A stretch of 34,593 nucleotides of DNA from Anaerolineales bacterium (GTDB lineage: Bacteria; Chloroflexota; Anaerolineae; Anaerolineales; Villigracilaceae), in contig CAKKRM010000126.1 in the NCBI GenBank assembly GCA_919902735.1, positions 1 to 34,593 on the forward strand. Reading direction: 5' to 3'. The position numbers were made by a program, and so were the translations under genes. This document shows positions 6,323 to 34,593 of this stretch, in pieces; positions within the stretch are counted from its first letter, which is position 1; each line of letters begins with the position of its first letter. The notes beneath the pieces are model-generated. The model searched no databases and had not been told where the DNA came from. It saw nothing but the letters and a program-made list of their open reading frames with translations.

Positions 6323-6399
6323 GCAGTACCGAGATTCACACAACTATAGGGAACAAAATCCAGGTTCAGGCGTTTTGATAATATATGGAGGGTTCGCCC

Positions 6400-15630: not shown

Positions 15631-15649
15631 GGTGAATCTCCTCGGTAAT

Positions 15650-17418: not shown

Positions 17419-17446
17419 TAATTACCTCAACTTATCTCTTGCTGTG

Positions 17447-17476
17447 GCGAGACCCCGCCAGGTGGCGGGGTCTCGC
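17447..17476 (-). terminator. Hairpin between binding-protein and permease genes
   Basis: Perfect 14-bp arms (GCGAGACCCCGCCA and its complement) enclose a two-base loop. No U tract follows, so it is more likely a 3'-end stabiliser or partial attenuator for the binding-protein message than a full terminator. Confidence 0.75.
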
Positions 17477-17498
17477 ATTATTACATCAAATCAATTTG

Positions 17499-19860: not shown

Positions 19861-19870
19861 TAACACCTGG

Positions 19871-20491
19871 TTAAGTTTTCTTTACAACAATATCTGCAAT
19901 AATGTTCGCCGCTTCATCGCCGCGGTCTGCCGCGTTGGAAAGGTGACGGTATACCTCGCGCAGCTTTAACATCTCGACCACGTGATGCAAATCTTCAGGC
20001 CCGCTGAACAGGTCTGCCACGGCTTCACGGTAAACGGCTTCCACTCGGTTCTCCAGCGCCTTGGCGCGCTGGGCATGGTCGATGGCGACGTTTGGATGTT
20101 TCGGCAGGCGTTGAACGGCATGTAGGATCTCGTACGCCGCATCCTTTAAAAGGGAGGCGATCCTTTGCATGTAGACGGTGGGCTGCACCTTGAGAACAAC
20201 CATCTCCATCACCGTTGTATCCGCGTAGTCAATCACATCGTCAATGGAGCGGGAAAGGGCAAAAATATCCTCGCGGTCAAACGGCGTGACAAAAGAGCGG
20301 TTCAATTCGTCAATTAAAATACGGCGAACTTCATCCGCCTCCTTCTCTTTTATGGATAGTTCCTCCGCGACATCGGGGTCGCTGGTCTCGAAATATCTGA
20401 CCAAAAGACGCAGTCCTTCATAAGCAAGGGACGCCTGCTGTTCGATCAGGTTTTGAAATACATTTTCTCGTTTCTTGAAAAAGCCAAACAT
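19871..20491 (-). CDS. DUF47 (PhoU-like) regulator of the PiT transporter
   Basis: A 206-residue all-helical DUF47 protein, related to PhoU. The start is placed at the ATG at 20491 (MFGFFKKRENVF), which has AAAGG about 10 bases before it and matches the common MFxFF beginning of the family. The upstream ATG at 20524 would add an atypical IIERYYY segment. Conserved features include KEADEVRR and DREDIFALSRSIDDVIDYAD, typical metal-binding helices. DUF47 proteins control the activity of the PiT transporter encoded next door. Nothing suggests a broader Pho system here. Confidence 0.9.
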   Translation of the reverse strand: MFGFFKKRENVFQNLIEQQASLAYEGLRLLVRYFETSDPDVAEELSIKEKEADEVRRILIDELNRSFVTPFDREDIFALSRSIDDVIDYADTTVMEMVVLKVQPTVYMQRIASLLKDAAYEILHAVQRLPKHPNVAIDHAQRAKALENRVEAVYREAVADLFSGPEDLHHVVEMLKLREVYRHLSNAADRGDEAANIIADIVVKKT

Positions 20492-20583
20492 ATAATAGTA
20501 CCTTTCGATAATTTTTATGGTCACGGCGGGTTGAACTCCAGACCATGACCGTATTGCTGATTTATATAACTGACGTTACACAC

Positions 20584-20813: not shown

Positions 20814-22250
20814 TTATTCGACTGGGGTTAATTCGCCCGCAACCATGCCCTCGAACCTTGCCCGAAGTTTTTCGTCCAATTCATCCGAAATCAACGGCTG
20901 GGGGTTGCTGGTCATAATCTCCTTTGCCTTCATCATCGCGCGGGCGTGAATATCCGTCGAGCCTTTCTTTTCCCAAATCGTGCGCGCATTGCGGTCTGCG
21001 ATCTTTGTCATCACGGCTTCGGTCTTCATGCGGCCAATGGTGTGTTTGGCAGTGATGTACGAGCCGCCCGGCCCAACTTCTTTGATAAGCGAAATCGCCA
21101 GTTCATCCTCGCTAAAATTGATTCCGCGTTTCAAGCGTTTCATCATTTGGGCGGCTTCATCATCCATCACGGCTTTGGCAAAATCGAAGGTCTTCAGCGC
21201 ATCGATCAACCCGCCAATGTTGAACATATCCATGCCGCCGAGCAAACCAGCAATTCCAGACATGCCTGTTTCATACCCAGCCTGCGCGTCATTCAACTTT
21301 GAATTGGTCAAGCCAACGTACCCGCCGCAGGGAACAGTGTAAAACCGCGCCAACTGTGCGAACGCCATGTGTAACATGCCGCACTCGATTGCGCCAGATG
21401 TGTAGGCGCCAGAGCGCATGTCTGCAACGGTGCCGAGTGTGGCGTAAATGGTGGGTGTGCCTTCCTTTACCATCTGCATCAACACCAGCCCGGATAAAAA
21501 TTCGGCGTTGCCCTGCGCCAGCGTCCCCGCCATGGACATCGGCGAAGTAAGGCCCGCGTTCGGTACAATGGTCGGGTAGACAGGCAGGCCCTCATTGGCA
21601 AAATACATCACATTTTCAGTGGAGAGCTTATCCATGGTCAACGGCGACACAATGGGGCAATAATGATGTGTGAGGAAAGGATGTTCCTTATAAGCTTCCT
21701 TTCCGCCCGCCACCATATACGCCATTTCCATAACGTCAAGCGTATCCTTGTGATCGGTCGTGGTGACACGGATCGGTTTAAGACAATACTTGATGGACGG
21801 ATACAGCCTCGAGATTGTGAATTGATCCGCAGGCGCGTCATCTGCCAAAGTGGAAATGGAGAAAATATCGTAGCCTGGAAGTTCATTGATGAGATGCGCG
21901 ATCCGCGCGATATCCGCTGACTCGGCGCGTCTTTCCGCGCCCGTAACTGGATCTATGATATCAGGAGCGGAACTGGCTGTGACAATGACCGGGCTATCCC
22001 GCGGGATCGTTTTATCGAACTTCGGGTCGCGCCCGTGAAAAGTAAAAGTAGGCGGAACCAGCCTGCGATATTTTTCTGTAATTGCGCGTGGAAATTTAAC
22101 CCGCTCATCTTCCACGATACATCCGTGCTGTTTGAAAAGTTCACGGGCAGGTTCATAACGAACCTTCAAGCCAACATCCTCCAAAATCTCCAATGAGGCT
22201 TCGTGGATTCGTTCGACCTGTTCCTGGGTAAGAAGAGCTGCAAATGACAT
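20814..22250 (-). CDS. MttB-family (COG5598) methyltransferase, no pyrrolysine
   Basis: A 478-residue member of the trimethylamine methyltransferase family. Family hallmarks are the N-terminal helix LTQEQVERIHEASLEILEDVG, a TIM-barrel core, and the block GLTNSKLNDAQAGYETGMSG. The gene has no in-frame TAG, so it belongs to the non-pyrrolysine branch. Characterised members of that branch demethylate quaternary amines such as glycine betaine, proline betaine or carnitine, passing the methyl to a corrinoid protein. No corrinoid-binding partner is encoded in the window. AAGGA lies 9 bases before the ATG. It follows the PfkB gene by 24 bp, so both are likely one transcript. The substrate is open. 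Confidence 0.9.
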   Translation of the reverse strand: MSFAALLTQEQVERIHEASLEILEDVGLKVRYEPARELFKQHGCIVEDERVKFPRAITEKYRRLVPPTFTFHGRDPKFDKTIPRDSPVIVTASSAPDIIDPVTGAERRAESADIARIAHLINELPGYDIFSISTLADDAPADQFTISRLYPSIKYCLKPIRVTTTDHKDTLDVMEMAYMVAGGKEAYKEHPFLTHHYCPIVSPLTMDKLSTENVMYFANEGLPVYPTIVPNAGLTSPMSMAGTLAQGNAEFLSGLVLMQMVKEGTPTIYATLGTVADMRSGAYTSGAIECGMLHMAFAQLARFYTVPCGGYVGLTNSKLNDAQAGYETGMSGIAGLLGGMDMFNIGGLIDALKTFDFAKAVMDDEAAQMMKRLKRGINFSEDELAISLIKEVGPGGSYITAKHTIGRMKTEAVMTKIADRNARTIWEKKGSTDIHARAMMKAKEIMTSNPQPLISDELDEKLRARFEGMVAGELTPVE

Positions 22251-22274
22251 GGGTCACATCCTTATTGATAAATT

Positions 22275-23372
22275 TTAATCAACCAATGATCTTTTGATCT
22301 TCCTGCGTTCCACTTTCTTCTTCGGTAAAATTTTTGCTGCCAGCTTCTGGCCTTCCTTTACAAGGGCGTTGTTGGCAATCGGGTTGCCCTGCGGAATATG
22401 CAGAAATTTGCGTATTTTGTAGAACTGGTCGCCGCGATAGACCATACGCTCGATGCGAACGGTGCGCGCCAGCCCCATGATTTGCTGGACGGGGAACATC
22501 GCCAATCCTGAGCGGGTGACTTTGAGCGAAGCGGCCGCAATCGCAAAGCGGACGGTCTCCTCCAGGCTCCATCCATTGAGATAGCCGTAGGCAAATCCCG
22601 ATGAGAACGTTGCGCCTGCGCCGGAGGCGTCCACGGCTTTCACTTTGGGGGCATAGGCGCGGATGATCTCATCGCCCTGCACCACCATACAGCCCTGACT
22701 AGCCATGGTAATGATGGCAGTCTTTATACCAGAGTTAATCAATTTGCGCGCCACACCCAGCATGGCCTGTTTTTTTCCGATCTGCGCGGCATCTGTCACC
22801 GCCTGACAAACTGTGACCAGGCCTGAGTATTTTTTGAGCAATTCAGGGTGCTGATGTCCATGCTCAAAATTGAGAAAAACGGGTACGTTATGCCGATGCG
22901 CCTCTTCCATGGCGCGGAGGATGTGGGCGTCGCCATCGTACCAGTCCACGTACAGCAGTTTGGACTTCTTTATTAATGAAAGGTCGGCGGTATCCAGTGT
23001 GCCGAGGATTTCTTCAGAGCGTTGCCAGAAATACGTGCGCGCTCCTTTTTTATCGGAGACATTCACCTCGAGCGGCGTTTTATATTTTTTGGTAAAACGC
23101 ACCTTTCCCTGCACACCCATTTTTTTTAGGGTATCGGCAACATGATGGCCGAGCAGATCGTCGCCAACTGATGTGCCAATCATGCCAGCAGGCACACCCC
23201 ATTGACTCAGGTTACATGCAATAATCGCCGCATCGTCATAGACATACTCGCTGACTTGATGCACGATCGCGCCTGTGTTGTGCTTGGGCAGGCGATCCAA
23301 CGCCATAATGTAGACAGGCGTCAACATGCCGAAGCCGACGTATGCGGGAGAGGTTTGTTTGGTAGAAGGCAT
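22275..23372 (-). CDS. PfkB-fold sugar-kinase-like protein lacking catalytic Asp
   Basis: A 365-residue PfkB/ribokinase-fold protein: the core spans about 10-305, followed by an unusual basic tail (KKKVERRKIKRS). The C-terminal signature normally DTxGAGDxFxxG reads DASGAGATFSSGF, so the catalytic Asp is Ala254 (codon at 22611-22613, GCA). The N-terminal GG substrate motif is also replaced (VYDDAAIIACN). Either it is a pseudokinase with a binding or regulatory role, or it uses another base. The anion-hole Gly-Ala-Gly is intact, so nucleotide binding may persist. It lies between the dehydrogenase and the MttB-like gene on the same strand. Confidence 0.85.
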   Translation of the reverse strand: MPSTKQTSPAYVGFGMLTPVYIMALDRLPKHNTGAIVHQVSEYVYDDAAIIACNLSQWGVPAGMIGTSVGDDLLGHHVADTLKKMGVQGKVRFTKKYKTPLEVNVSDKKGARTYFWQRSEEILGTLDTADLSLIKKSKLLYVDWYDGDAHILRAMEEAHRHNVPVFLNFEHGHQHPELLKKYSGLVTVCQAVTDAAQIGKKQAMLGVARKLINSGIKTAIITMASQGCMVVQGDEIIRAYAPKVKAVDASGAGATFSSGFAYGYLNGWSLEETVRFAIAAASLKVTRSGLAMFPVQQIMGLARTVRIERMVYRGDQFYKIRKFLHIPQGNPIANNALVKEGQKLAAKILPKKKVERRKIKRSLVD

Positions 23373-23375
23373 TCT

Positions 23376-23466
23376 AAAAATTCACCACAAAGTGTCACAA
23401 AGGATCACGAAGGAAGGTCACTTAAACCTTTGTGTACCTTCGTGCCCTTTGTGGTTAAAAATTTTT
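23376..23466. repeat. Palindromic CACAAAGG/CACGAAGG element
   Basis: Paired segments ACCACAAAG (23384-23392) with CTTTGTGGT (23447-23455), and CACGAAGG (23406-23413) with CCTTCGTG (23437-23444), fold into an imperfect hairpin that fills the gap between the dehydrogenase and PfkB-like genes. The sequence type is widespread in bacterial intergenic DNA. Confidence 0.65.
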
Positions 23467-25894
23467 AGGCGCGCGCCCTCTCGCCTTTCGGGTCGAATAA
23501 CACAGACGCGGTCACTTCCGCTTCACGCCGACCCTCTATCAGGTCAATGAGGAAGCGATTGCCCTGCTTCGCCAAATCCGTTGGCAAATAGGCGTACAAA
23601 ATATTCTTCTTCAACGTGAAGCCATATCCGCCACTGCGAACGCGGGTCAACACCTTGTCTTCGTGATAGATCGCTTCACCGCCGTAGATTTGAGTGAAGT
23701 CATCACCCTTGACGAGGACAAGCGTGCAAAGTTTACGATTAATGCCTTCCGCTTTTTGTTTTACCAAGGCATCGCGCCCGATGAAATCGCCTTTATCGAG
23801 ATGGACACAAAATCCAAGACCCGCCTCGTAAGGCGTTTCAGAAGGCGTAATATCGGTTGTGAAATAGCGGTAGCCTTTTTCAAGACGCAATGAGTCAAGC
23901 ACTTTGTAACCGCCAAGTTCGAGGCCAAATTCCGTGCCTGCTTCAATGAGCAGATCCCAAACGGGTGTGGCGCGGTTGTTGGGAATGTAAAGCTCCCAGC
24001 CCAGTTCGCCTGCATAGCTGACTCTCTGAGCATACACCTTTGCCCCATTGATCAGAATCAGTTTTGTCGTTAAGTAAGGATGCGCGGAATTCGACACATC
24101 GCTCGTGGTGATCTTCTCCAACACCGCGCGCGCCTTCGGCCCCCACAACGCGAGACAGGCATACTCCTGCGTGATGTCGCGGATGGATACATCGCCATCC
24201 TTTTCATCCACGTGCATTTGAATGCGCGCGAGGTCATTGCCGATAAAACCAGAACCTGTGATGACCCAAAAATGATCTTCGCTCAAACGAGTGACGGTGA
24301 GATCGGATTCAATTCCGCCGCGTGTGTTCAAGAACTGAGTGTAGACCGCGCTGCCAACAGGCTTATCAATATTGCTGGAAGTCAATCGCTGCAACAAGGG
24401 CAATGCTCCTTCGCCTTTCACTTCGATCTTTCCGAAGGAAGTCAGATCAAACAAGGTCACACGTTCACGAGTGGCAACATGCTCTTGACCAACGCGGTCA
24501 AAAAACGGCGGCTTCGCCCAACCCCATCCACGCTGATCCTCACCCATGCGCCGCGACTCTTTGCCAGGTTCAAAATAATTCACACGCTCCCAGCCAAATT
24601 TTTCACCAAAGACCGCGCCATTTTCCATCAAGCGGAAATGAAGGGGACTCACGCGATGAGGCCGCGCGGTTTCATGTTCATCGTGCGGGAACTTCATGCG
24701 GTAATAATATTTCACGCTTTCGACAGTGCGCTCCGCCGCATACACGGGGTCGGCATAATAATTTCCAAAACGCGTGGCGCGATAGCCATACACATCCATC
24801 GGTGCTTCGCCTTCGATGATCCACTCGGCCAGCAATTTTCCCATGCCGCCCGCGCCGCCGTATCCATTTAATGACATGCCTGCCAGCATCCAGAAACCCT
24901 TGACACCTGCCATCGGTCCAAGCAAGGGTTGGCAATCCGGCGTGTACGCGCCCGGGTGACGCACCAACGTAATAATTCCAGCCTGATCTAAAAATGGCAG
25001 GCGGCGAATCGCGCCTTCGAGCAGCATTTCAAATTGATCGAAGTCACCGGGGAAACTCTTGCTGCCATGTTCCCAGGGCGTGCCATCGATCCAGCGCGGC
25101 AGTGGCTTCGGCTCATAGCCGCCGATCACCAGCCCGCCCTGCTCCTGGCGCATGTACACCAAATTATCAGGGTCGCGCAAACACGGCGTGGATGATGAAA
25201 ACTCATGCCCTGGCACGGCGCGCAAGGCAATATGCTGATGATCCACTGGAGTAGTTGGGATGTGAAGCCCCGCCATTGCAGCGATACGCGGCGCCCACAG
25301 TCCCGCGGCATTGACGATGATCTCGCATCTTATCTCGCCTTTATCTGTCACTACACCTTGAACCTCGCCCTTCGCTGACAGTTTGATTCCCGTCACCCGT
25401 GTGTTGGTGTAAACCTCCACGCCCAATTCCTTCGCAAACTTTACCATCGAAGTCGTGGCAGTATATGGGTCAAGCTGCCCATCACGCGGAAGATAAATGC
25501 CGCCGTACAGATCTTTTTTAGAAATCTGCGGCATGACCTTCAACGCATCATCGGGAGAGATGACTTCCACGTCGAGGCCCAAGGCCTTGGCGCGGCTGAC
25601 GCTTCTTTCCAACTCTTTGAGCTGTTCCCTGCTCGAAGCGACTCGCAAACTGCCGACATGGTCGAACAACCCCAACTCGCTGTACAACTCAATGCTGTAC
25701 ATGCGGAACTTGAGCATCGCCTGAGACGTGGCAAACTGCGTCACCAACCCCGCCGCGTGAGACGACTCACCGCTGGCGATCTCGCCTTTCTCCAGAATCA
25801 CCACATCCTTGCGCCCGTACTTTGCAAGGTGATAGGCAACCTGCGCGCCATAAATCCCGCCGCCAATGATAACAATCTGTGCTTGGCTCTTCAT
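23465..25894 (-). CDS. Dimethylglycine/sarcosine dehydrogenase-like flavin-folate enzyme (copy 1)
   Basis: An 809-residue fusion. It starts with an FAD-dependent DAO domain (1 to about 370): dinucleotide motif IIGGGIYGAQVAYHL, and H46 in SSHAAGL, the His that carries covalent FAD in this family. A small central domain (375-430) follows, then a GcvT folate domain (430-700) and its C-terminal barrel (715-805). Such enzymes oxidise N-methyl groups of dimethylglycine, sarcosine or related amines and transfer the one-carbon unit to tetrahydrofolate. AGGTGA precedes the ATG. It is similar in length and order to the copy at 31704. No signal peptide, so cytoplasmic. The substrate cannot be assigned. 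Confidence 0.92.
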   Translation of the reverse strand: MKSQAQIVIIGGGIYGAQVAYHLAKYGRKDVVILEKGEIASGESSHAAGLVTQFATSQAMLKFRMYSIELYSELGLFDHVGSLRVASSREQLKELERSVSRAKALGLDVEVISPDDALKVMPQISKKDLYGGIYLPRDGQLDPYTATTSMVKFAKELGVEVYTNTRVTGIKLSAKGEVQGVVTDKGEIRCEIIVNAAGLWAPRIAAMAGLHIPTTPVDHQHIALRAVPGHEFSSSTPCLRDPDNLVYMRQEQGGLVIGGYEPKPLPRWIDGTPWEHGSKSFPGDFDQFEMLLEGAIRRLPFLDQAGIITLVRHPGAYTPDCQPLLGPMAGVKGFWMLAGMSLNGYGGAGGMGKLLAEWIIEGEAPMDVYGYRATRFGNYYADPVYAAERTVESVKYYYRMKFPHDEHETARPHRVSPLHFRLMENGAVFGEKFGWERVNYFEPGKESRRMGEDQRGWGWAKPPFFDRVGQEHVATRERVTLFDLTSFGKIEVKGEGALPLLQRLTSSNIDKPVGSAVYTQFLNTRGGIESDLTVTRLSEDHFWVITGSGFIGNDLARIQMHVDEKDGDVSIRDITQEYACLALWGPKARAVLEKITTSDVSNSAHPYLTTKLILINGAKVYAQRVSYAGELGWELYIPNNRATPVWDLLIEAGTEFGLELGGYKVLDSLRLEKGYRYFTTDITPSETPYEAGLGFCVHLDKGDFIGRDALVKQKAEGINRKLCTLVLVKGDDFTQIYGGEAIYHEDKVLTRVRSGGYGFTLKKNILYAYLPTDLAKQGNRFLIDLIEGRREAEVTASVLFDPKGERARA

Positions 25895-26101
25895 TCAATT
25901 CACCTGTTTATATTTAGACTATATCACACACCTGAAGAGTCTCGCATGTTTGAAGGCGAAACCCATAAGGAGGATATTCAATTTTTAATTCCGCTTTGCA
26001 AGATACTCTAACCCGTTCACCGACATCAAGCGCCTTATTACAAGCCGTAGTTGGCCGTATTTACATCCTTTGATCTCAATAATGTAACTCACCTTACGCG
26101 A
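25895..26101 (-). other. Leader region of dehydrogenase copy 1
   Basis: No gene is seen. About 75 bases before the start codon the leftward transcript carries CCTCCTT (25973-25967), the anti-Shine-Dalgarno sequence. No convincing -35/-10 pair could be fixed. The region right of it contains the two hairpins listed next. Confidence 0.4.
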
Positions 26102-26105
26102 AACA

Positions 26106-26155
26106 TCCCGAAGGTTCTCTCAAAAGAACCTTATTGAGCAACAAAACCTTCGGGA
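26106..26155. repeat. Inverted repeat TCCCGAAGGTT / AACCTTCGGGA with inner hairpin
   Basis: Perfect 11-bp outer arms enclose a further AAGGTTCT/AGAACCTT stem (26111-26132), giving alternative folds. TTACGC lies on the left flank and GCGTAA on the right. It shares its core with the repeat at 20584-20637. Confidence 0.7.
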
Positions 26156-26201
26156 CGGTGCGTAACATCAGTAATCTAATTTTCTGAACAATAAACTAAA
26201 C

Positions 26202-26234
26202 GGTGGTCAGTGCTTACGAAACGCACTGACCACC
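26202..26234 (-). terminator. Terminator of the APC permease gene
   Basis: Perfect 12-bp arms GGTGGTCAGTGC and GCACTGACCACC have a 9-base loop. The leftward transcript then runs into a T-rich tract (GTTTAGTTTATTG). It lies 25 bases after the permease stop codon and separates the permease from the dehydrogenase. Confidence 0.75.
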
Positions 26235-26258
26235 CACCATCAGACAGAAGAGTAAATT

Positions 26259-27887
26259 TTACTCTGGCGGGATTTCCTTGAAGGCGTAATCCACGTTGAT
26301 ACCTTTGGATTTTTGGGTATTTTTGGCAAACATATACCAAACGGCAGAGAAGATCAGAATTCCAAACACCACGCTGTACGCCAATGTGCTGGTAAGCCCA
26401 AGCTGCGCATAGAGCATGAACATCAGGATCATCGCGCCGCCAAGGATGAAACCAATCACGCCGATAATGGTGACGAGCGGGGTGTTGCCAACTTTGTACT
26501 TTGCGCCCGGAGACGATTCGTATACATCCTTTGCGCGGTAAGGCAATAATGCGCCCGCCAAACATGTGATCACGAATACATAACCGCAGGCAAAAGTAAC
26601 GCCGAGTGTAAGCGCAACCCAATTTGAGTTTAGGTTGTATAACAAAATGACGGGAATACTGGCGAGGAAATAAGCCCAATGCGCATTGACCGGGGTATGG
26701 CGTTTCTCGTCCACTTTGCTGATCCATTCGGGGAGCAGGCGGTCGAGTGACATGGCAACCATCACACGCGTCATGCCGATATAGCAGTTATGCACAATTT
26801 GATGCGAATTGAGAATATAACCCAGGCCAATAATGATAATAACCAATGGGCTGGCCGACAGCGCAACCGCAATGATGTTGGGCCAGAGCCAGAACCCGGC
26901 AATGGTCGATTCTCCAACACCTGACCAATAGCCTGCGCCAGCCACATACAGGAATTCCGTGCCAACTGCTTTTTCCAAAGCAAATGCGAGAACGGCAAGC
27001 AAAATGCCTGTAAAGATCAATGAACCTACGATGATGAACATCTGGCTGTTGAAGGAACGCGCATTCTTAATCTCGCCGTTCTGTTGAGCGCTATAGGTAG
27101 CCCATTGCAGGGAGGTCCACGCAATTGGGGCAACTAGCACGGTTGCCAGCAAACTGAAGGGCGGATTCAAATCCACGCCCGCGGCAATGGATGCATCCCT
27201 GGCCGTCTGGACAAAATTCTGGGTTCCGCCAATAGCAAGAGCGAATGCGTCGATCTTTGTCATGGAGGAAGCGGGGTCACCCAGGAAGAGAACGACCAGC
27301 ATGGTAACGAAAGCAAGTAAGGTGCCGCCGATCATGACAGCCTGAAAACGCACATAATTCTTGAAACCGCTGATGAGGATCATCATGGAAACAAAGGCGT
27401 TCAGGATGCTGGTAATGATGATGCCGGTTGAACCTGTAAACCAAAGGCCCAGTCCGGTCATTGCCGCGCTGCCCATGGTTGCCCCAAGCCCAAGGAATAG
27501 CGGCGCAAATCCAAGATAAGATAGCAGCCATCCGGATAGCGCCACCCACTGAAGTATCCAGATCACATAACCAGACATGACCACAGTGAAAGCAGTACCG
27601 CCGCCAAACACACGGCTTTGGAATACATAATCACCGCCAGAACGCGGCAAAGCTGTGGAAAGCCACACATAGACAAGCGCAATGGGAATTTCGATCACCA
27701 TCGCAAGCAAAATTCCCCAGACGAGTTTGCCGCCGGGAAGCGCGCCCGGCGCCCAAAGATACGTCCATGGGAAAATCAGGCCCATCGTCAAAATGTTGTA
27801 GACGAAGGCGGAGAACGGAGACATAACACGCACAAGCCCGGAGGCTTTTCGAGTAAAGACTTCTGGTTTTGCCGCAGCTGTTGCCAT
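26259..27887 (-). CDS. APC-superfamily amino acid/amine permease
   Basis: A 542-residue membrane protein with about twelve hydrophobic helices and the amino acid-polyamine-organocation fold. After a short cytoplasmic start come FSAFVYNILTMGLIFPW, ALPRSGGDYVF (the conserved substrate-helix region) and a long loop before the sixth helix. The substrate is probably an amino acid or amine and cannot be named. GGAGAAAAGAA precedes the ATG. It lies on the same strand as the metallophosphoesterase and DeoR genes (101 bp gap) and next to the dehydrogenase, so import of that enzyme's substrate is the plausible job. A strong hairpin ends its transcript. Confidence 0.88.
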   Translation of the reverse strand: MATAAAKPEVFTRKASGLVRVMSPFSAFVYNILTMGLIFPWTYLWAPGALPGGKLVWGILLAMVIEIPIALVYVWLSTALPRSGGDYVFQSRVFGGGTAFTVVMSGYVIWILQWVALSGWLLSYLGFAPLFLGLGATMGSAAMTGLGLWFTGSTGIIITSILNAFVSMMILISGFKNYVRFQAVMIGGTLLAFVTMLVVLFLGDPASSMTKIDAFALAIGGTQNFVQTARDASIAAGVDLNPPFSLLATVLVAPIAWTSLQWATYSAQQNGEIKNARSFNSQMFIIVGSLIFTGILLAVLAFALEKAVGTEFLYVAGAGYWSGVGESTIAGFWLWPNIIAVALSASPLVIIIIGLGYILNSHQIVHNCYIGMTRVMVAMSLDRLLPEWISKVDEKRHTPVNAHWAYFLASIPVILLYNLNSNWVALTLGVTFACGYVFVITCLAGALLPYRAKDVYESSPGAKYKVGNTPLVTIIGVIGFILGGAMILMFMLYAQLGLTSTLAYSVVFGILIFSAVWYMFAKNTQKSKGINVDYAFKEIPPE

Positions 27888-27988
27888 TTCTTTTCTCCTT
27901 TGGTTTGAATTATTTCAATCCGTACACGCAGTACACGATCTCCTGAAAAATAATCTGCAATCTCTGAATGTGCCGCCTCCTTTCAATT

Positions 27989-28987
27989 CTATCCACTGGT
28001 CATCTGATAGCCCTGTACTTCACCATCCGCGAAGGTGACAAGGCAGCCGCGTAAAACACCTTCGGCGTATTCGCTGCCTGGGTTGATGCAAGTCGTCCGC
28101 CCCAGCCTGGCAACAGATTGCGATTCATGGATGTGACCATGCAGCCCAAGCATCGGCTTATATTTCTCGATTGCCTGGCGGACGGCTGCGCTTCCCGCTC
28201 CGTGCATAACTGGTTGCCCTCCCTGAACAATTTGCTCAGGTGGATCCTTATCCCAATCCAACATGGGGCAGGTATCCAGCGTGGAGTCTTTCGGAGGGTC
28301 ATGGAAGTTGAAAATGGCTTTGTTCAAATCAGGCACCAGGGACGCCATTTTGTCGATCATGGCTCCCAGCTCCTCTTCTGAAACTTCACGCGGGGTCTTC
28401 CAGGGAGTCGGTGTGCTGATACCCACCGAGATCATGGTGTGATCGTCATCTACTTGAACCATTTCATTTTCACAGGCAAAGAAGGACTTTACGCCTTCCT
28501 GTTTCAGCGCTTTTAACACATCCCACTCATCGTCGTTGCCGCCGGTGACAAAACATTTAATGCCGGTACCGTTTAATCTCTCTTCAGCAAGGCTTACCCA
28601 GTTGACCAGTTTTTGCTTCGCAAGCTCATTGAACAATACCTCTACAGACCTGGGATCGGCCTGCAAAGTACGGAACTCGTCCTCTTGCATAATCTTATAA
28701 TAAAATCCGAGAATATCCAGTTTGCCTGTCAGGGCTTTTAATTCTTCTTCGGTGGTAATGTGTTCAACACGTCCCTGCACGGTGGCGCGGTGATGACCGT
28801 TTGATTCCTTGATGATGGGGATCATCAACTTGCCTTGAATGTCTCCGCCCATCACGATGACATTTACATTGTAGAACTTTCCCGCATTGATAAACTTGCG
28901 AAATGTTCGTTCAGAGCCATGAATATCCGTGGCAAAGAACAGGCGGGTCGGTTCTTTTTTTGGTTTCTTTGAAAAGAAAAAAGACAT
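27989..28987 (-). CDS. Calcineurin-like metallophosphoesterase
   Basis: A 332-residue phosphoesterase. The motifs run in order: D21-x-H23 in FATDIHG, GGD49IQG, GGNDDE where most families have GNHD, a lone His in NFHDPP, and GLHGHIHES. The GNHD motif reads GNDD, so the usual active-site His is missing at that point. The long insertion between the second and third motifs is unusual and might recognise a particular substrate. There is no signal peptide. GGAGG precedes the ATG. It follows the DeoR gene by 33 bp and is probably co-transcribed with it. Substrate unknown. Confidence 0.88.
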   Translation of the reverse strand: MSFFFSKKPKKEPTRLFFATDIHGSERTFRKFINAGKFYNVNVIVMGGDIQGKLMIPIIKESNGHHRATVQGRVEHITTEEELKALTGKLDILGFYYKIMQEDEFRTLQADPRSVEVLFNELAKQKLVNWVSLAEERLNGTGIKCFVTGGNDDEWDVLKALKQEGVKSFFACENEMVQVDDDHTMISVGISTPTPWKTPREVSEEELGAMIDKMASLVPDLNKAIFNFHDPPKDSTLDTCPMLDWDKDPPEQIVQGGQPVMHGAGSAAVRQAIEKYKPMLGLHGHIHESQSVARLGRTTCINPGSEYAEGVLRGCLVTFADGEVQGYQMTSG

Positions 28988-29020
28988 CTGGGTTCCTCCA
29001 ATTAAAAACCTGGCGTACTA

Positions 29021-29824
29021 TTAATTCACGTCCGGCTGGGTGGTAATAAAATTGGCGAGAAGGCAGGGGATGTTATGTGCAGCGAGCGATTCCACGGCTG
29101 AAGAATCAAAGCGCTCATCCGATACAAGTTTATCGACCTCATCAATATTGGCGATTTGAAAATTAGATACCACGCCCCATTTACTATGGTCTGCGACCAC
29201 AATGACCTGTCCTTTTGTGCGTTCGATCATCTTGCGGACAACTTCGGCTTCAGGGTTGGTTGGCACGGTGCAGCCGTGTTTAAGGGAGATTCCGTCAACG
29301 CCAAGGATCGTTTTGTTGGCATAGACCAGCCCTAAATTGTCCAGTGCGAAGCGGCCTGCCAAAGAGTTGGAACGGGATTGGAACTCGCCTCCCGTCATAT
29401 AGTAGTGAAAGCCCGGGTTGCCGAGATCCATCACGGCGCTGACATTATTTGTAAAAACCGTAATCCGGGAATCTCGCCGAATATGCTGTAAAACCTGTGT
29501 GGCGGTGGTGCCGCTGTTGATAAAAACAATATCACCATCTTCGATCAACGACGCGGCAAGTTCGCCAATACGCCGCTTTTCTTCGGGGTGATGCTGCACT
29601 CTTTGTTGATATTCCTGCTCGAGGATCATGCGCTGATTTAAGATCGCTCCCCCATGCGTACGCTCAAGAATTCCTTTTTGCTCCATCCACTCGAGGTCAC
29701 GGCGCACAGTTGCTTCGGAAGTTTCCAGCATTTGACACAAATCAACCGTGCGGACGATTTGGTGGACAGCCAGATATTCCTGAATTCGCTCCCGCCGTTG
29801 GGCTGGAATGAGAGGTTTGCTCAT
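29021..29824 (-). CDS. DeoR-family transcriptional regulator
   Basis: A 267-residue DeoR/GlpR-type repressor. A winged helix-turn-helix (res. ~7-60) carries the family signature SEATVRRDLEWMEQKGILERTHGGA. The sensor domain (about 75-250) has INSGTTATQV and the phosphosugar-type pocket residues TNN and GVDGIS. The sensor usually binds a phosphorylated sugar or related phospho-metabolite, which may link it to the kinase-like and phosphoesterase genes here. It is first in the leftward cluster and divergent from the nucleotidyltransferase-like gene, so it probably controls its own operon and perhaps the divergent one. Confidence 0.92.
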   Translation of the reverse strand: MSKPLIPAQRRERIQEYLAVHQIVRTVDLCQMLETSEATVRRDLEWMEQKGILERTHGGAILNQRMILEQEYQQRVQHHPEEKRRIGELAASLIEDGDIVFINSGTTATQVLQHIRRDSRITVFTNNVSAVMDLGNPGFHYYMTGGEFQSRSNSLAGRFALDNLGLVYANKTILGVDGISLKHGCTVPTNPEAEVVRKMIERTKGQVIVVADHSKWGVVSNFQIANIDEVDKLVSDERFDSSAVESLAAHNIPCLLANFITTQPDVN

Positions 29825-29873
29825 TAACTGGTCTCAACTTGGAGATGAAGGAAATTGCTCACTTTGATGTCGC

Positions 29874-29902
29874 ATTATATAAGAATCTGATGAAATTTGC
29901 AA
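29874..29902 (-). promoter_or_regulatory. Promoter of the DeoR-family gene
   Basis: Leftward, TTGCAA (29902-29897), a 17-base spacer and a perfect TATAAT (29879-29874) lie about 50 bases before the start codon. The surrounding 29880-29960 stretch is very AT-rich and must also hold the promoter of the divergent gene. No clear -10 element was fixed for that direction. Confidence 0.7.
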
Positions 29903-30014
29903 GTTTTTGACTTTTTTATTATAATTACAATAATGTACTCAACGAACAAGAAAAATTCATCAACACGCTTTCATCAGACTCGAATGGCTTAATTCTCTTT
30001 CAGGAGATATGTGA

Positions 30015-30803
30015 ATGACAAATAGTTCTGTTGGGATGGGTGAACAGGATCGTTCTGAGCGCGAAAAATTCGAGAACGAATTGAAGACGATACTAAAAAC
30101 CAGTGAAGATTCGAATATCCTTTTACGGGTAATCGGCTCACTGGCTTTTCAAATGCATTGTCCTCAGTTTGGCTATTTACAAGCGGCAATGGGCCGCGCA
30201 TATACAGATATTGATTTTGGGGCGTACGGCAACCAAAATAAACAAATCTCTCGAATGATGGCTTCGCTTGGTTATGTGGATAACCGCGAAGTCTTTATTT
30301 CATCTGAAGGGGAACGAGCTATTTTCGACAAGCCTGGCACGGGTCTACACGTAGATGTTTTCTATGAGAAGCTCGACTTTTGTCATGCCATTTATTGGAA
30401 GGACAGACTTGAAGTTGACTCGCCCACCATCCCTTTGACAGAACTGCTTCTCGAAAAAATGCAGATCGTTCAGATCAACGAAAAGGATATTATCGACACC
30501 ATCATGTTGTTGCTCGAACACCCATTGGGCGATATTGACAAGGAAACGATCAACATAAAACTCGCGGCACAGTTATGTTCGAATGAGTGGGGGCTGTGGC
30601 GCACCGCCACCATGAATCTCGATAAAGTAAAACAACTCGCGCAACATTACACACAGCTTTCCGACGAACAAAAATCAAAAGTGGTCACACAAGTGGACGA
30701 AATCGTTGCGCGTTTGAACAGCGAACCAAAACCGCTCGCATGGCGCATCCGTGACCGCGTAGGCGACCGCGTCAAATGGTACAAAGAAGTGGACGAAGTT
30801 TAA
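30015..30803 (+). CDS. Nucleotidyltransferase-like protein of unknown function
   Basis: A 262-residue protein that I read as a divergent polymerase-beta-type nucleotidyltransferase. IGSLAFQ (GS motif) is followed by YTDIDFGAY (the two metal-binding Asp) and LHVDVFY (the third acidic strand). This is the order of the fold, with an insertion between GS and DID. The C-terminal half is helical, and the last 30 residues are rich in Arg and Lys. The family is often annotated only as hypothetical. AGGAG lies 9 bases before the ATG. It precedes the CBS gene by 9 bp. Which group it transfers and to what is unknown; an AbiEii-like toxin is not indicated because no antitoxin partner is seen. Confidence 0.65.
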   Translation: MTNSSVGMGEQDRSEREKFENELKTILKTSEDSNILLRVIGSLAFQMHCPQFGYLQAAMGRAYTDIDFGAYGNQNKQISRMMASLGYVDNREVFISSEGERAIFDKPGTGLHVDVFYEKLDFCHAIYWKDRLEVDSPTIPLTELLLEKMQIVQINEKDIIDTIMLLLEHPLGDIDKETINIKLAAQLCSNEWGLWRTATMNLDKVKQLAQHYTQLSDEQKSKVVTQVDEIVARLNSEPKPLAWRIRDRVGDRVKWYKEVDEV

Positions 30804-30812
30804 GGAGTCATC

Positions 30813-31625
30813 ATGGCAAAACTTGTAAAAGATTTAATGCACACAGGCTTGATCACCTGCAAACCCACAGCTACGCTCGGCCAGGTGGCGGTATTACTCC
30901 ACCAGCATCATGTCCATGCCCTGGTAGTTGCAGATCGGGATGGACGCACATTAGGTCTCATCTCCGATTTTGACTTGATGGCTGGTGAATGGCTTTCATC
31001 GGATGAAGAAAGCCTGGCAGTTATGCGAAAATTGACAGCTGCGGATCTTATGTCACAAACGGTTGATTCCGTTGATGCAAACACTTCCATCACTGAGGCA
31101 GCCGGTATCTTCATGGAAAAAAAGGTCAGCCGCCTTTTGGTCACTGAGAACGGCAAATCTATCGGCATCGTTTCCCTTTCCGATTTTATCGCCAGTATCG
31201 CAGGTGAAATGAAGACCAAACGGGAAACGGTCGGCGATGTCATGTCGGATGCCATCCTGGTCTGCCGCGGTAAAACCCCCGTCGCCTCGGCAGCTCGCGC
31301 AATGACATCTGCTGGCTGGCGTTCTGTGCTGGTGGTGGATGCAAAAGGAAAAATCCTGGGCGTGGTCAGCGGGCACGACCTGCTGCGTTTTGTAAAAGAA
31401 GGCCTAGCAGAAAAGATGATCGTCCGTGATGTAATGCACCCCGCGCTGACCATTGACATCCACGCCAGCCTGCGCGAAGCCGCGGATATGATGATCCAGA
31501 ATCACTATCACAGGCTGGTTGTGGTTGACAAGGAAGACGCGGATGCATTCCCCCTCGGCGCAATCTCCACATTTGACATTGTAGCGGAAATGGCAAGGCC
31601 TGATTCTATATGGCAGAAAAAATAA
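30813..31625 (+). CDS. Four-CBS-domain protein
   Basis: A 270-residue protein made only of four CBS repeats (two Bateman modules). Each begins with a DLM/DVM-type residue group: KDLMHTG, ADLMSQT, GDVMSDA and RDVMHPA. Each ends with a GLISDFDL-like segment. CBS pairs bind adenine nucleotides or S-adenosyl compounds and sense energy state. The protein has no catalytic domain and probably regulates a partner. AAGGAG precedes the ATG. It lies 9 bp after the nucleotidyltransferase-like gene and 78 bp before the second dehydrogenase. Confidence 0.9.
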   Translation: MAKLVKDLMHTGLITCKPTATLGQVAVLLHQHHVHALVVADRDGRTLGLISDFDLMAGEWLSSDEESLAVMRKLTAADLMSQTVDSVDANTSITEAAGIFMEKKVSRLLVTENGKSIGIVSLSDFIASIAGEMKTKRETVGDVMSDAILVCRGKTPVASAARAMTSAGWRSVLVVDAKGKILGVVSGHDLLRFVKEGLAEKMIVRDVMHPALTIDIHASLREAADMMIQNHYHRLVVVDKEDADAFPLGAISTFDIVAEMARPDSIWQKK

Positions 31626-31628
31626 ATT

Positions 31629-31686
31629 GACCATAGACAGTGGACGGTGGAAAATTTCAATGGTCTATCGTCCACGGTCCATCGTC
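31629..31686. repeat. Imperfect hairpin between CBS and dehydrogenase genes
   Basis: The segment 31629-31650 and the reverse complement of 31661-31686 share the GACnAT.GAC.GTGGACG pattern over about 22 bases. A hairpin at this place could lower read-through from the CBS gene into the dehydrogenase gene. It resembles a dispersed repeat. Confidence 0.55.
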
Positions 31687-31703
31687 TTAATTAGGAGATA
31701 CAC

Positions 31704-34136
31704 ATGTCAGAATTTCCAACACAGGCTCAGGCAGTTGTTATCGGCGGAGGCGTGGGCGGATGCAGCATTGCCTATCATCTCACCAAATTAGGGTGGAAGG
31801 ATATCGTCGTTCTCGAACGACACGAATTAACTTCAGGCTCCACCTGGCACTCGGCGGGGCTGGTGGGACAAATGCGTTCAGATGCGAACCTGACCCGCAT
31901 GATGCACTACAGCACAGACTTGTACCGCAGCCTCAAAGCGGAAACGGGACAGGATACTTCATGGCGCGAGGTCGGTGGGATTCGCCTCGCTTCCTCCGCT
32001 GAAAGAATGGAAGAGACGAAAAGATTAGTGGGCATGGCGAATTCCTTTGGCGTGCCGATGGAATTGATCAGCGCCAAAGAAGCGCAGGCTATGTTCCCAT
32101 TGATGGACATCAAAGGTGTGGTCGGCGCGGCGTACACCCCCAACGATGGCAGCATCGACCCGACAGGCCTCACGAATGCGCTCGCCATCGGCGCAAAGAA
32201 CCGCGGCGCAAAGTTCTTCACCGACACAAATGTTGAAAAGATCAACCTGAAAAATGGCCGCGTCAGCGAAGTGGTCACTAACAAGGGTACGATCAAAACT
32301 GAAGTTGTTGTGAACGCTTCCGGCATGTGGGGACGCGAGATCGGAAAAATGGTCGGGCTGAGTCTGCCTGTCATCCCAATGGCGCATCTTTATATTATGA
32401 CCAAGCCCATCGAAGGTGTCACCAGCAAATTCCCCAACCTGCGCGACCCAGACTTGTTGGTTTACTGGCGCGAAGAAGTCGGTGGCTTGGTGACGGGCGG
32501 TTACGAACGCCAGCCTGCCACCTTCGGCATGAATGGCATTCCGCGTGATTTCAAATTCCAGTTACTTCCCCCAGATTGGGAGCGTTTTACGCCGTTGATG
32601 GAAAACTCCATCCGCCGCGTTCCTGCGATTGAAAATGCCGAAGTGAAAATGTTGTTGAACGGCCCCGAAGGCTTCACGCCAGATGGTGAATTTTTGCTGG
32701 GACCAACCACCGTCAAAGGCTTCTGGGTGGCGTGTGCGTTCTGCGCGCATGGCCTCGCGGGCGCGGGCGGTATTGGCAAGGTCATGGCTGAGTGGATCGT
32801 GGATGGCAACCCCGAGTGGGATATGTGGCGTTTGGATGTGCGCCGCTTTGGCCCCAACTACAACAGTCTCGAATATGCGGTTGCGCGTACCTTTGAAACC
32901 TACACCCAATATTACGATATTCACTTCCCCGGTGAGGAGCGTTTGTCGAAACGCAACGTGCGCACCTCCCCCACCTACTATCGCCTGCGCGATCTTGGTT
33001 GTCACTTTGGCGAAAAGATGGGTTGGGAGCGCCCGAACTGGTTCAAGAAATATGAAGAGCTTGCCACGCACGGCCACGAACCACGCGGCTGGGCGCGTCA
33101 CAATTGGTCACGCGCCATCGGTCACGAGCATTTGAAAACCCGCGAAAACGCCGGTCTCTTCGATGAAACCTCCTTCAACAAATTTGAAGTGCGCGGCCCC
33201 GGCGCGTTGAAATTCCTCAACTATGTTTGCTCCAACGAAATGGATCAACCGCTCGGCGCGATCACCTACACCCAATGTCTCAACAAGCGCGGCGGAATTG
33301 AATGCGATTTCACCGTCACCCGCCTTGCGGAAGACCGCTTCTTCATTGTGACAGGCACGGCCTTCGGTCAGCATGACATGTCCTGGCTTTCGCTCAACAT
33401 GCCCGAAGACGGCACCGTCACACTTGAAGATGTCAGCTCCAATTATGTGTGTCTCGGCTTGTGGGGTCCCAAGGCGCGCACCATCCTTGAAAAAGTGACG
33501 ATGGATGATGTCTCGAATGCATCCTTCCCTTATATGACTTCCAGGCGAATGAACGTGGGTGATGTCCCGGTCATCGCTTCGCGCGTAACGTATGTAGGAG
33601 AGCTGGGCTGGGAGTTTTACTGCCCCTCGGAATACGGCCTGCGACTCTGGGATACGCTCTGGACAGCGGGAGAATCTCTGGGCATGGTGGCTGGCGGTTA
33701 TAAAGCCATTGACACCCTGCGCCTCGAAAAGGGTTATCGTTATTGGAGCGGTGAAATTTCCCCGGACTACACTCCATATGAAGCAGGCCTCGGCTTTGCA
33801 GTGAAATTGGACAAGCCTGATTTCATCGGCAAGGACGCGTTGGTGAAGCAGAAAGCGGAAGGCATCAAGCGAAAGCTTTGCACGATCACGCTTGCAGATG
33901 ACCGCACGATTGCGCTTGGCAAGGAACCCATCCGCGCAGACGGGAAGCTCGTCAGTTGGGTGGCTTCGGGCGGGTTTGGGTATTCGGTGAATAAGTCCAT
34001 TGCGTATGCCTATCTCCCGATGGAATATGCAAAAGCTGGAACAAAATTAGAGGTAGAGTGTTTTGGCGAGCAGGTCGGCGCAGAGGTGACACAGGCCGTG
34101 TTGTGGGATGCCAAAGGTGAGAGAATTCGTCAGTAA
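31704..34136 (+). CDS. Dimethylglycine/sarcosine dehydrogenase-like flavin-folate enzyme (copy 2)
   Basis: An 810-residue paralogue of the enzyme at 23465, with the same order: DAO-type FAD domain (VIGGGVGGCSIAYHL), H49 in STWHSAGL for covalent FAD, a central domain, then GcvT folate domain and C-terminal barrel. The C-terminal stretch KPDFIGKDALVKQKAEGIK is almost identical to the other copy, while the N-terminal halves differ much more, as expected if the two act on different amines. AGGAG lies 7 bases before the ATG. It is transcribed rightward, away from copy 1, and is followed by a phosphotransferase gene. The one-carbon acceptor is presumably tetrahydrofolate. Substrate unassigned. Confidence 0.92.
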   Translation: MSEFPTQAQAVVIGGGVGGCSIAYHLTKLGWKDIVVLERHELTSGSTWHSAGLVGQMRSDANLTRMMHYSTDLYRSLKAETGQDTSWREVGGIRLASSAERMEETKRLVGMANSFGVPMELISAKEAQAMFPLMDIKGVVGAAYTPNDGSIDPTGLTNALAIGAKNRGAKFFTDTNVEKINLKNGRVSEVVTNKGTIKTEVVVNASGMWGREIGKMVGLSLPVIPMAHLYIMTKPIEGVTSKFPNLRDPDLLVYWREEVGGLVTGGYERQPATFGMNGIPRDFKFQLLPPDWERFTPLMENSIRRVPAIENAEVKMLLNGPEGFTPDGEFLLGPTTVKGFWVACAFCAHGLAGAGGIGKVMAEWIVDGNPEWDMWRLDVRRFGPNYNSLEYAVARTFETYTQYYDIHFPGEERLSKRNVRTSPTYYRLRDLGCHFGEKMGWERPNWFKKYEELATHGHEPRGWARHNWSRAIGHEHLKTRENAGLFDETSFNKFEVRGPGALKFLNYVCSNEMDQPLGAITYTQCLNKRGGIECDFTVTRLAEDRFFIVTGTAFGQHDMSWLSLNMPEDGTVTLEDVSSNYVCLGLWGPKARTILEKVTMDDVSNASFPYMTSRRMNVGDVPVIASRVTYVGELGWEFYCPSEYGLRLWDTLWTAGESLGMVAGGYKAIDTLRLEKGYRYWSGEISPDYTPYEAGLGFAVKLDKPDFIGKDALVKQKAEGIKRKLCTITLADDRTIALGKEPIRADGKLVSWVASGGFGYSVNKSIAYAYLPMEYAKAGTKLEVECFGEQVGAEVTQAVLWDAKGERIRQ

Positions 34137-34146
34137 AGCTTCGTCC

Positions 34147-34271
34147 CGTCATTGCGAGGAGGGCATTTGCTCTTTCCGACGACACTTGCGCCGTACGCCA
34201 GTGCGGTGAGCAATCCCATCACTGGCAGGAGATTGCTTCGGGCAAAGAACAAGGTCGCCCTCGCAATGACG
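34147..34271. repeat. Long inverted repeat of the CGTCATTGCGAGG type
   Basis: The left arm CGTCATTGCGAGGAGGGC (34147-34164) pairs with GCCCTCGCAATGACG (34257-34271) with a three-base bulge. The 90-base centre includes GAGATTGCTTCGGGCAAAGA. This is a widespread class of bacterial interspersed palindromic element. It fills most of the gap after the dehydrogenase gene; the remaining 34272-34433 shows no gene. Confidence 0.8.
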
Positions 34272-34433
34272 AATCTGAAGTGGAATGAATTTACCAGTAA
34301 ACAGGATCAAATCCAACGTTAAGAATGAAGCGATGTACTTCATCCAAAAAATAATGGAGGCTGCCGTCTCAAATAATTTTCATGGAAAGCGCGAACGTAA
34401 ACAAAAATCCTAATCTTGTTTGGAGAATATGCC

Positions 34434-34593
34434 ATGTCAACACTCGCAATTGATAAAGCCATTGAAAAAGTTCCGTTTCTCGCCGGGTCTAAAAATGTAA
34501 AGAAGACTGCCTTGAGCGGCGGAATCACAAATTTGAACTTCAAGGTTGATGCAGACGGTAAGTCTTATGTGATTCGACTCGCGGGCGATGGGA
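34434..34593 (+). CDS. Choline-kinase/APH-type phosphotransferase, start only
   Basis: The last 160 bases encode the first 53 residues of a protein cut by the window edge. After a short helix comes LSGGITNLNFKVDADGKSYV followed by IRLAGDG. This is the Gly-rich nucleotide-binding loop and the strand with the Lys/Arg of choline/ethanolamine kinases and related aminoglycoside-phosphotransferase-fold enzymes. GGAGAA lies 6 bases before the ATG. Its place after a dimethylglycine dehydrogenase-like gene suggests a small amino-alcohol or related substrate, which is inference only. Confidence 0.75.
   Translation, partial: MSTLAIDKAIEKVPFLAGSKNVKKTALSGGITNLNFKVDADGKSYVIRLAGDG

Follow-up and report, generated by a model that had tools for sequence, protein, structure and literature searches.

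A conserved Anaerolineales gene cluster with candidate corrinoid-type and flavin/folate N-demethylases and phospho-metabolism genes

Gene content of the locus

The locus described here lies on contig C126 (CAKKRM010000126.1) of a 4.26-Mb, 356-contig genome of the Anaerolineales group (GCA_919902735.1; completeness 96%, contamination 2%). The window, meaning the whole stretch of DNA that was analyzed, is this contig at its length of 34,593 nucleotides, and one part of it encodes an MttB-superfamily methyltransferase and two enzymes of the dimethylglycine dehydrogenase (DMGDH) type, DMG1 and DMG2, in two divergent operons. A preliminary description, made from the letters alone, had placed these genes with an APC permease, a DeoR regulator, a kinase-fold protein, a phosphoesterase and a choline-kinase-like gene in a candidate amine-demethylation locus without a visible corrinoid protein or reductive activator. 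Each of these genes was recovered, neither a corrinoid protein nor an activator was found inside the window, and the interval also encodes two proteins missing from that list, p7 and a protein with four CBS domains. The cluster very probably serves stepwise N-demethylation with a corrinoid system acting in trans. Its features are as follows (G, C, L and f labels denote genomes, contigs, loci and families).

20814-22250, minus strand: MttB-superfamily methyltransferase (non-pyrrolysine), 478 amino acids (aa); PF06253, 336 bits
22275-23372, minus strand: PfkB/ribokinase-fold protein; PF00294, 113 bits
23465-25894, minus strand: DMG1, predicted DMGDH-type FAD/folate N-demethylase; DAO+FAO_M+GCV_T+GCV_T_C
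26259-27887, minus strand: APC-family permease; PF13520, 70.5 bits; 13 loci
27989-28987, minus strand: calcineurin-like phosphoesterase-type protein; PF12850, weak at 23.9 bits against a cut-off of 27
29021-29824, minus strand: DeoR/GlpR-type regulator; PF00455 and PF08220; conserved first gene of the operon
29874-29925, both strands: predicted divergent promoter; -10 at 29874-29879 (minus), 17 bp, -35 TTGCAA at 29897-29902, 17 bp, -10 TATAAT at 29920-29925 (plus)
30015-30803, plus strand: p7, nucleotidyltransferase-like protein; its C154 paralogue matches NTP_transf_5 just under the cut-off
30813-31625, plus strand: 4xCBS-domain protein; PF00571, four copies; divergent partner of DeoR in 25 loci
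31704-34136, plus strand: DMG2, second predicted DMGDH-type FAD/folate N-demethylase; DAO+FAO_M+GCV_T+GCV_T_C
34434-34593, plus strand: choline/ethanolamine-kinase-family gene, start only, contig end reached; rest on C110:1-831

Contig C110 overlaps the end of the window by exactly 55 bases and carries the remainder of the choline-kinase-like open reading frame. For p7, no Pfam or NCBIfam match was obtained, and its structure model, with a predicted local distance difference test (pLDDT) value of 45, was not used.

Conservation across the Anaerolineales

With MttB alone as the query, 84,980 species genomes yielded 49 loci, about 45 of them from Anaerolineales or Chloroflexi metagenome-assembled genomes, which make up most of the relatives; MttB identity was mostly 77-95%. 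Genes linked to MttB included those for the PfkB-fold protein (44 loci), DMGDH-type enzymes (37), an ABC importer, Pho4, DUF47 and DeoR (about 30 each), the CBS protein and choline kinase (25 each), and APC, the phosphoesterase and p7 (13 each), all of these counts being minima because many contigs end inside the cluster. Since the same neighbours recur across loci retrieved by MttB alone, the arrangement is not due to chance. The gene set is kept across the order, mostly at 70-98% identity, and extends to its other families, several of which link the phosphoesterase-like gene to APC and MttB. MttB identity falls to 53-72% in more remote genera and families; DMG1 and DeoR are retained in f1 and f14, a DMG relative of 49% identity lies beside the distant MttB of f4, and the ABC importer is retained more widely. 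On Proteobacterial plasmids, a search for the same MttB subfamily gave a best identity of 32%. The conservation in related genomes on which the preliminary description had made its proposal depend is thus order-wide, and these data support a conserved amine-demethylation locus uniting corrinoid-type and flavin-folate routes with phospho-metabolism genes.

The MttB homologue and its substrate pocket

MttB matches PF06253 over residues 5-464 with 335.9 bits (cut-off 25), and scores 371 bits with the model for pyrrolysine-containing trimethylamine methyltransferases (TIGR02369), under the equivalog cut-off of 525. Its frame is open, without an in-frame amber stop, and the protein is therefore not of the pyrrolysine type. 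A TGA noticed upstream was discarded as a mere overrun beyond the ATG into the 24-bp gap. The nearest solved structure is Desulfitobacterium hafniense MtgB (2QNE/9YCE), a member of the same superfamily that aligns over the full length with about 35% identity at aligned positions. The glycine-betaine-binding positions of MtgB were proposed by docking (PMC6855144). At Y94, N199, R309, H345 and F353 of MtgB, the clade of the window protein carries S, C, G, N and L, respectively; among its 63 members the S/C/G/N set is identical in 63/63 at three positions and in 62/63 at the fourth, whereas a control MtgB orthologue from the Firmicutes genome G151 retains Y, N, R and H. The betaine-binding residues proposed for MtgB are all lost in the clade, so that a non-carboxylate substrate fits.

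Known substrates of other MttB members carry a carboxylate, but Eubacterium limosum MthB uses phosphocholine, which is supplied by a choline kinase whose gene stands next to that of MthB in divergent orientation (PMC12155760). A kinase-linked MttB was sought in genome G151 and none was found. In the window, the choline kinase gene likewise belongs to the operon divergent from that of MttB, about 12 kb away and not immediately adjacent, and in relatives it may lie beside DMG1. The corrinoid gene is absent from the MttB cluster of this genome, where it sits on contig C157, and shares the operon with MttB in L069 and L070. We propose that MttB performs the first N-demethylation of a quaternary amine, perhaps phosphocholine.

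The corrinoid partner and the pseudokinase

The preliminary description had reasoned that the partner of MttB must be elsewhere or absent, and had suggested a genome-wide search for MtgC- and RamA-type proteins. Both were found. The only standalone corrinoid protein found in the genome is MtgC-like (C157:7774-8430); C171 encodes a RACo-type activator with a betaine-homocysteine-methyltransferase-like gene after it, and one pterin methyltransferase, which we read by eye from its sequence as of the MtgA/D type, lies on C244. The remaining PF02607 matches of the genome belong to a full-length MetH and to a MerR-type regulator. A set of the Ruegeria MtgB/MtgC/MtgD/RamA type is thus present genome-wide (C126, C157, C244 and C171), the MtgB slot being filled at the superfamily level only and without the MtgB-type pocket.

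In relatives, these components are encoded in cis. The operon of G038 (L069) reads DeoR-DMG1-PfkB-Corr-RACo-HcyMT-MttB, where Corr is the corrinoid protein and HcyMT the homocysteine-methyltransferase-like protein; identities to the C157/C171 copies are 73% for Corr, 67% for RACo and 63% for HcyMT. Similar arrangements occur in G121, G018 and G004, with a MetF-like gene beside that of G018; in L083, a MetF-like gene (read by eye) adjoins HcyMT-Corr-RACo-MttB. RACo was detected in 29/29 genomes carrying this MttB, against 99/151 in the order (naive hypergeometric 9e-7, shared ancestry ignored). Since all 29 genomes have RACo and PF02607 matches, we discarded the idea that this MttB needs no corrinoid partner.

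Three more MttB paralogues lie beside the C157 corrinoid protein, and five MttBs therefore appear to share it. This second quaternary-amine locus (L066, G000:C157) also contains a GntR regulator and NuoEF/formate-dehydrogenase-like genes. Genome G015 (completeness 95%) has seven MttB matches and neither a RACo nor a PF02607 match.

The PfkB-fold gene adjoins MttB or the corrinoid gene. Its product is modeled with a ribokinase fold (pLDDT 81), but GAGD is replaced by GAGAT, with loss of the catalytic Asp, in 49/49 orthologues, and the GG motif by DDAA in nearly all of them, whereas solved relatives retain GAGD or AGD. Substrate phosphorylation by the usual mechanism is therefore unlikely, and the protein, listed in the preliminary description as having a kinase fold, is probably a conserved pseudokinase.

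The flavin/folate demethylases and the divergent promoter

DMG1 and DMG2 are 46% identical to each other, and the nearest relatives of both are DMGDH and dimethylglycine oxidase (DMGO), with 4pab as the nearest solved structure to DMG1. Both possess the four domains and, aligned with rat DMGDH, retain the covalent-FAD His, the active-site His and Tyr, and the folate-domain Asp, residues that have equivalents in DMGO. DMG2-like genes accompany DeoR, an ABC importer and choline/ethanolamine kinases, without MttB, in Ruegeria, Shinella and Ciceribacter. On Sinorhizobium meliloti pSymB (L095), DMGDH-like genes, the second apparently split, adjoin a polyamine-type ABC importer and an MttB of another kind, 30% identical to that of the window. 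The union of corrinoid and flavin-folate routes, which the preliminary description had regarded as unusual, has a precedent in this locus and was already reported for marine Proteobacteria, where mtgBCD often has the genes of the subsequent demethylation steps in its vicinity (PMC12478193).

The predicted promoter pair of the two operons sits between DeoR and p7, and its -35 element, TTGCAA, is palindromic and can therefore act in both directions. The identical layout with 17/17 spacing recurs in 30/35 DeoR upstream regions and in 0/2000 shuffles. As read from these elements, two polymerases at the shared -35 should exclude each other. No copy of the DeoR-region motif, allowing up to one mismatch, was found upstream of the C157 corrinoid and C171 RACo genes or at the relevant starts, which indicates no regulatory link in trans.

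The second operon and the flanking genes

On C110, the choline kinase gene, whose product has the choline kinases 3dxq and LicA (4r77) as nearest solved structures, is followed by genes for a class II aldolase (FBA), a HisC-like pyridoxal-phosphate-dependent transaminase, a CbbY-like HAD phosphatase and an APC permease. The FBA-HisC-HAD trio lies next to DMG2 in ten relatives from three families (G139, G093, G011, G145, G056, G100, G079, G103, G021 and G064). A xylulose-1,5-bisphosphate phosphatase role had been predicted from gene order ahead of the structure-relative search, in which CbbY was the nearest solved relative of the HAD protein (4uav, E 2.5e-66; 4uar, E 1.2e-40). The protein aligns with AtCbbYA/RsCbbY over nearly the full length, including GGGKERM and KKKPDPAIYNLA, and scores 226.8 bits with CbbY against only 37.9 bits with phosphonatase. 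CbbY itself is found in the cbb operon, whereas this HAD accompanies an aldolase and a transaminase in genomes mostly without RubisCO: the large chain had no match in 9/10 trio-carrying relatives, among which G011 and G093 are single-contig genomes, and RubisCO is present in this genome and in G079. CbbY and RubisCO thus do not co-occur consistently across the trio-carrying relatives. Xylulose-1,5-bisphosphate is a product of RubisCO misfire, and the substrate of HisC itself is a 2-amino-alkyl phosphate. Aldol addition of dihydroxyacetone phosphate to glycolaldehyde phosphate is a published synthesis of xylulose-1,5-bisphosphate (PMC10212915). A paralogous phosphoesterase-APC-choline kinase-NTP_transf_5 set lies upstream of Nuo genes in L119 (G000:C154:31000-44405), and genes downstream in L119 also follow MttB in L022, L024, L045 and L047.

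On the other side, the following genes continue the cluster beyond MttB.

19871-20524, minus strand: DUF47/PhoU-like protein, downstream of MttB; PF01865, 84.5 bits; 31 loci
18868-19866, minus strand: PiT-type phosphate transporter (Pho4); PF01384, 288 bits; 32 loci
14569-18683, minus strand: ABC importer; substrate-binding protein 17499-18683, permeases 16528-17418 and 15650-16564, ATPase 14569-15630; about 30 loci
13689-14504, minus strand: type I phosphodiesterase/alkaline-phosphatase-superfamily enzyme; PF01663; 19 loci

The best-scoring models for the ABC importer are those of 2-aminoethylphosphonate/polyamine importers, its substrate-binding protein falling far below the cut-offs. Consequently, the 14-kb gene set of the preliminary description stands, but not the interval as a functional unit, as the unit reaches past MttB to the phosphate transporter, the importer and the phosphodiesterase, and past the choline kinase to the aldolase, transaminase and CbbY genes of C110. 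Further along the window, 6385-12468 encodes a bacterial alpha-2-macroglobulin of 2027 aa with Ig-like domains.

A candidate route from choline and its alternatives

From the gene content, its conservation and synteny, the promoter layout, the Corr-RACo-MttB linkage in relatives and the catalytic residues kept or lost, we infer a substrate, an order of steps and every reaction of a possible pathway. Choline, or imported phosphocholine or glycerophosphocholine, would be converted to phosphocholine via choline kinase. MttB would pass one methyl group from phosphocholine to the single MtgC-type corrinoid protein of the genome, which RACo would keep active, and the methyl would go on to tetrahydrofolate and/or homocysteine. 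DMG1 and DMG2 would transfer the second and third methyls, from dimethylaminoethanol (DMAE)-phosphate and methylaminoethanol phosphate, into methylene-tetrahydrofolate, leaving O-phosphoethanolamine. The HisC-like transaminase may turn this into glycolaldehyde phosphate, the aldolase would add dihydroxyacetone phosphate to give xylulose-1,5-bisphosphate, and the CbbY-like phosphatase would release xylulose-5-phosphate and phosphate; transamination, aldol addition and CbbY would thereby close a path from choline to xylulose-5-phosphate. DeoR and the divergent promoter with its shared -35 would couple the two operons. We consider the chances about even that the substrate is choline or phosphocholine with intermediates that stay phosphorylated. 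The whole route, from demethylation of phosphocholine by a new MttB subfamily through the DMGDH-type steps to entry of phosphoethanolamine into sugar metabolism as xylulose-5-phosphate, is offered tentatively.

Several observations weigh against this proposal. In six relatives (L072, L073, L074, L077, L078 and L081), a Rieske enzyme related to glycine-betaine/stachydrine demethylases (GbcA/Stc2 type; 371-400 bits against the GbcA cut-off of 670) lies between DMG1 and PfkB/MttB, and points to a betaine; it is absent from this genome. The corrinoid protein is MtgC-like and is accompanied in other genera by a betaine-homocysteine-methyltransferase-like gene. The likeness to MthB is one of gene layout and published description, and the MtgB pocket residues used for comparison come from docking, not mutagenesis, with an ambiguous N199 column that shifts by one between alignments. 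In addition, the scheme assigns no step to the pseudokinase, p7 or the CBS proteins, the aldolase or the HisC-like enzyme may belong to glycolysis or to histidine synthesis, and the surroundings of DMG2 in G038 and G059 yielded no FBA-HisC-HAD trio. In the Rieske-bearing relatives, a single operon holds N-demethylases of three kinds, oxygen-dependent, corrinoid and flavin.

Some of these points would be accommodated by catabolism of glycine (or proline) betaine as in Ruegeria, in which MttB would be the betaine methyltransferase acting with MtgC and RACo, DMG1 and DMG2 would be dimethylglycine and sarcosine dehydrogenases leading to glycine, and choline kinase, aldolase, transaminase and CbbY would have other jobs. 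The same three-step logic has precedent (PMC12478193), and, besides the Rieske enzyme of the relatives and the MtgC-like and betaine-homocysteine-methyltransferase-like genes, this explanation is favoured by MtgB as nearest solved structure, by DMGDH/DMGO as nearest DMG relatives and by the MetF-like gene of L083. It is nevertheless rather unlikely, given that none of the betaine-binding positions of MtgB is conserved among the 63 clade members, that the cluster contains no ProU/BCCT betaine transporter and that the conserved ChoK-FBA-HisC-CbbY block is left unexplained.

The two operons might instead have separate functions under one regulator, with MttB/DMG1 acting on quaternary amines and DMG2-ChoK-FBA-HisC-CbbY salvaging sugar- or amino-alcohol phosphates. 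Modules of the DMG2-ChoK type without MttB in Alphaproteobacteria, the missing trio beside DMG2 in G038 and G059, and the GlpK and GlpO genes that come after the second-operon genes in some genomes agree with such a division; it is made improbable by the divergent promoter with its shared -35 and constant 17/17 spacing at 30 loci, and by the choline kinase gene lying between APC and DMG1 within the MttB operon of L012, L019, L034 and others. Least probable, and only a slight chance in our view, is degradation of N-methylated 2-aminoethylphosphonate, from which MttB and the DMGs would strip the methyls before a transaminase yields phosphonoacetaldehyde and a hydrolase frees phosphate for the phosphate transporter. 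The models that score best with the ABC genes fit this idea, as do the DMG2-like genes with DeoR beside 2-aminoethylphosphonate transport and/or PhnW/PhnA/PhnY genes in Shinella, Ensifer and Aminobacter, and N-methyl-2-aminoethylphosphonate is a substrate of DAO-family enzymes (PMC10590968). However, the HAD protein resembles CbbY and not phosphonatase, none of phnW, phnX and phnA was recognized in the cluster, choline kinase and aldolase are unexplained, and the importer's binding protein lies far below its cut-offs.

Few products of cell death are as common as choline and its phosphate esters. If the choline route is true, three methyls and a two-carbon phosphate would be recovered by one conserved cluster in a widespread, mostly uncultured order, and folate pools would gain a methyl source missing from present annotations. 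A biological role outside RubisCO damage would fall to glycolaldehyde phosphate and to xylulose-1,5-bisphosphate, the latter as a true catabolic intermediate; CbbY genes in genomes without RubisCO would be explained, and the substrate of an orphan MttB subfamily named.

Comparison with known systems

The domain order and the four catalytic or cofactor residues of DMG1 and DMG2 are those of mammalian DMGDH and Arthrobacter DMGO; unlike these, they occur as two paralogues, and the genes linked to them are kinase and phosphatase genes, not betaine genes. The MtgBCDE/MetF2 system of Ruegeria pomeroyi likewise has an MttB-type first step, a corrinoid protein, a RamA-type activase and later flavin/folate demethylation (PMC12478193), and the likeness extends to a homocysteine-methyltransferase-like gene and, in a relative of this genome, a MetF-like gene. 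The present system differs in having no MtgB pocket, in its choline kinase, aldolase, transaminase and CbbY genes, in a full-length MetH also encoded in the genome, and in belonging to the Chloroflexota.

The MthK-MthB-MthC-MthA system of E. limosum also comprises an MttB-superfamily enzyme, a divergently encoded choline kinase and an MtgC-type corrinoid protein, and it phosphorylates the substrate before demethylation, as proposed here (PMC12155760). In E. limosum, one methyl is taken off and DMAE-phosphate is recycled, whereas this locus has two DMGDH-type enzymes and an aldolase/transaminase/CbbY block, with the corrinoid protein encoded elsewhere. For MttB with DMGDH in Anaerolineae, or for catabolism of phosphoethanolamine to glycolaldehyde phosphate, no literature on point was found. 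Already known, therefore, are MttB-type and DMGDH-type steps for glycine betaine (PMC12478193) and demethylation of phosphocholine by an MttB member (PMC12155760); within the literature searched, no precedent appeared for the MttB subfamily, for its pairing with two flavin/folate demethylases and a choline kinase, or for the exit through aldolase, transaminase and CbbY.

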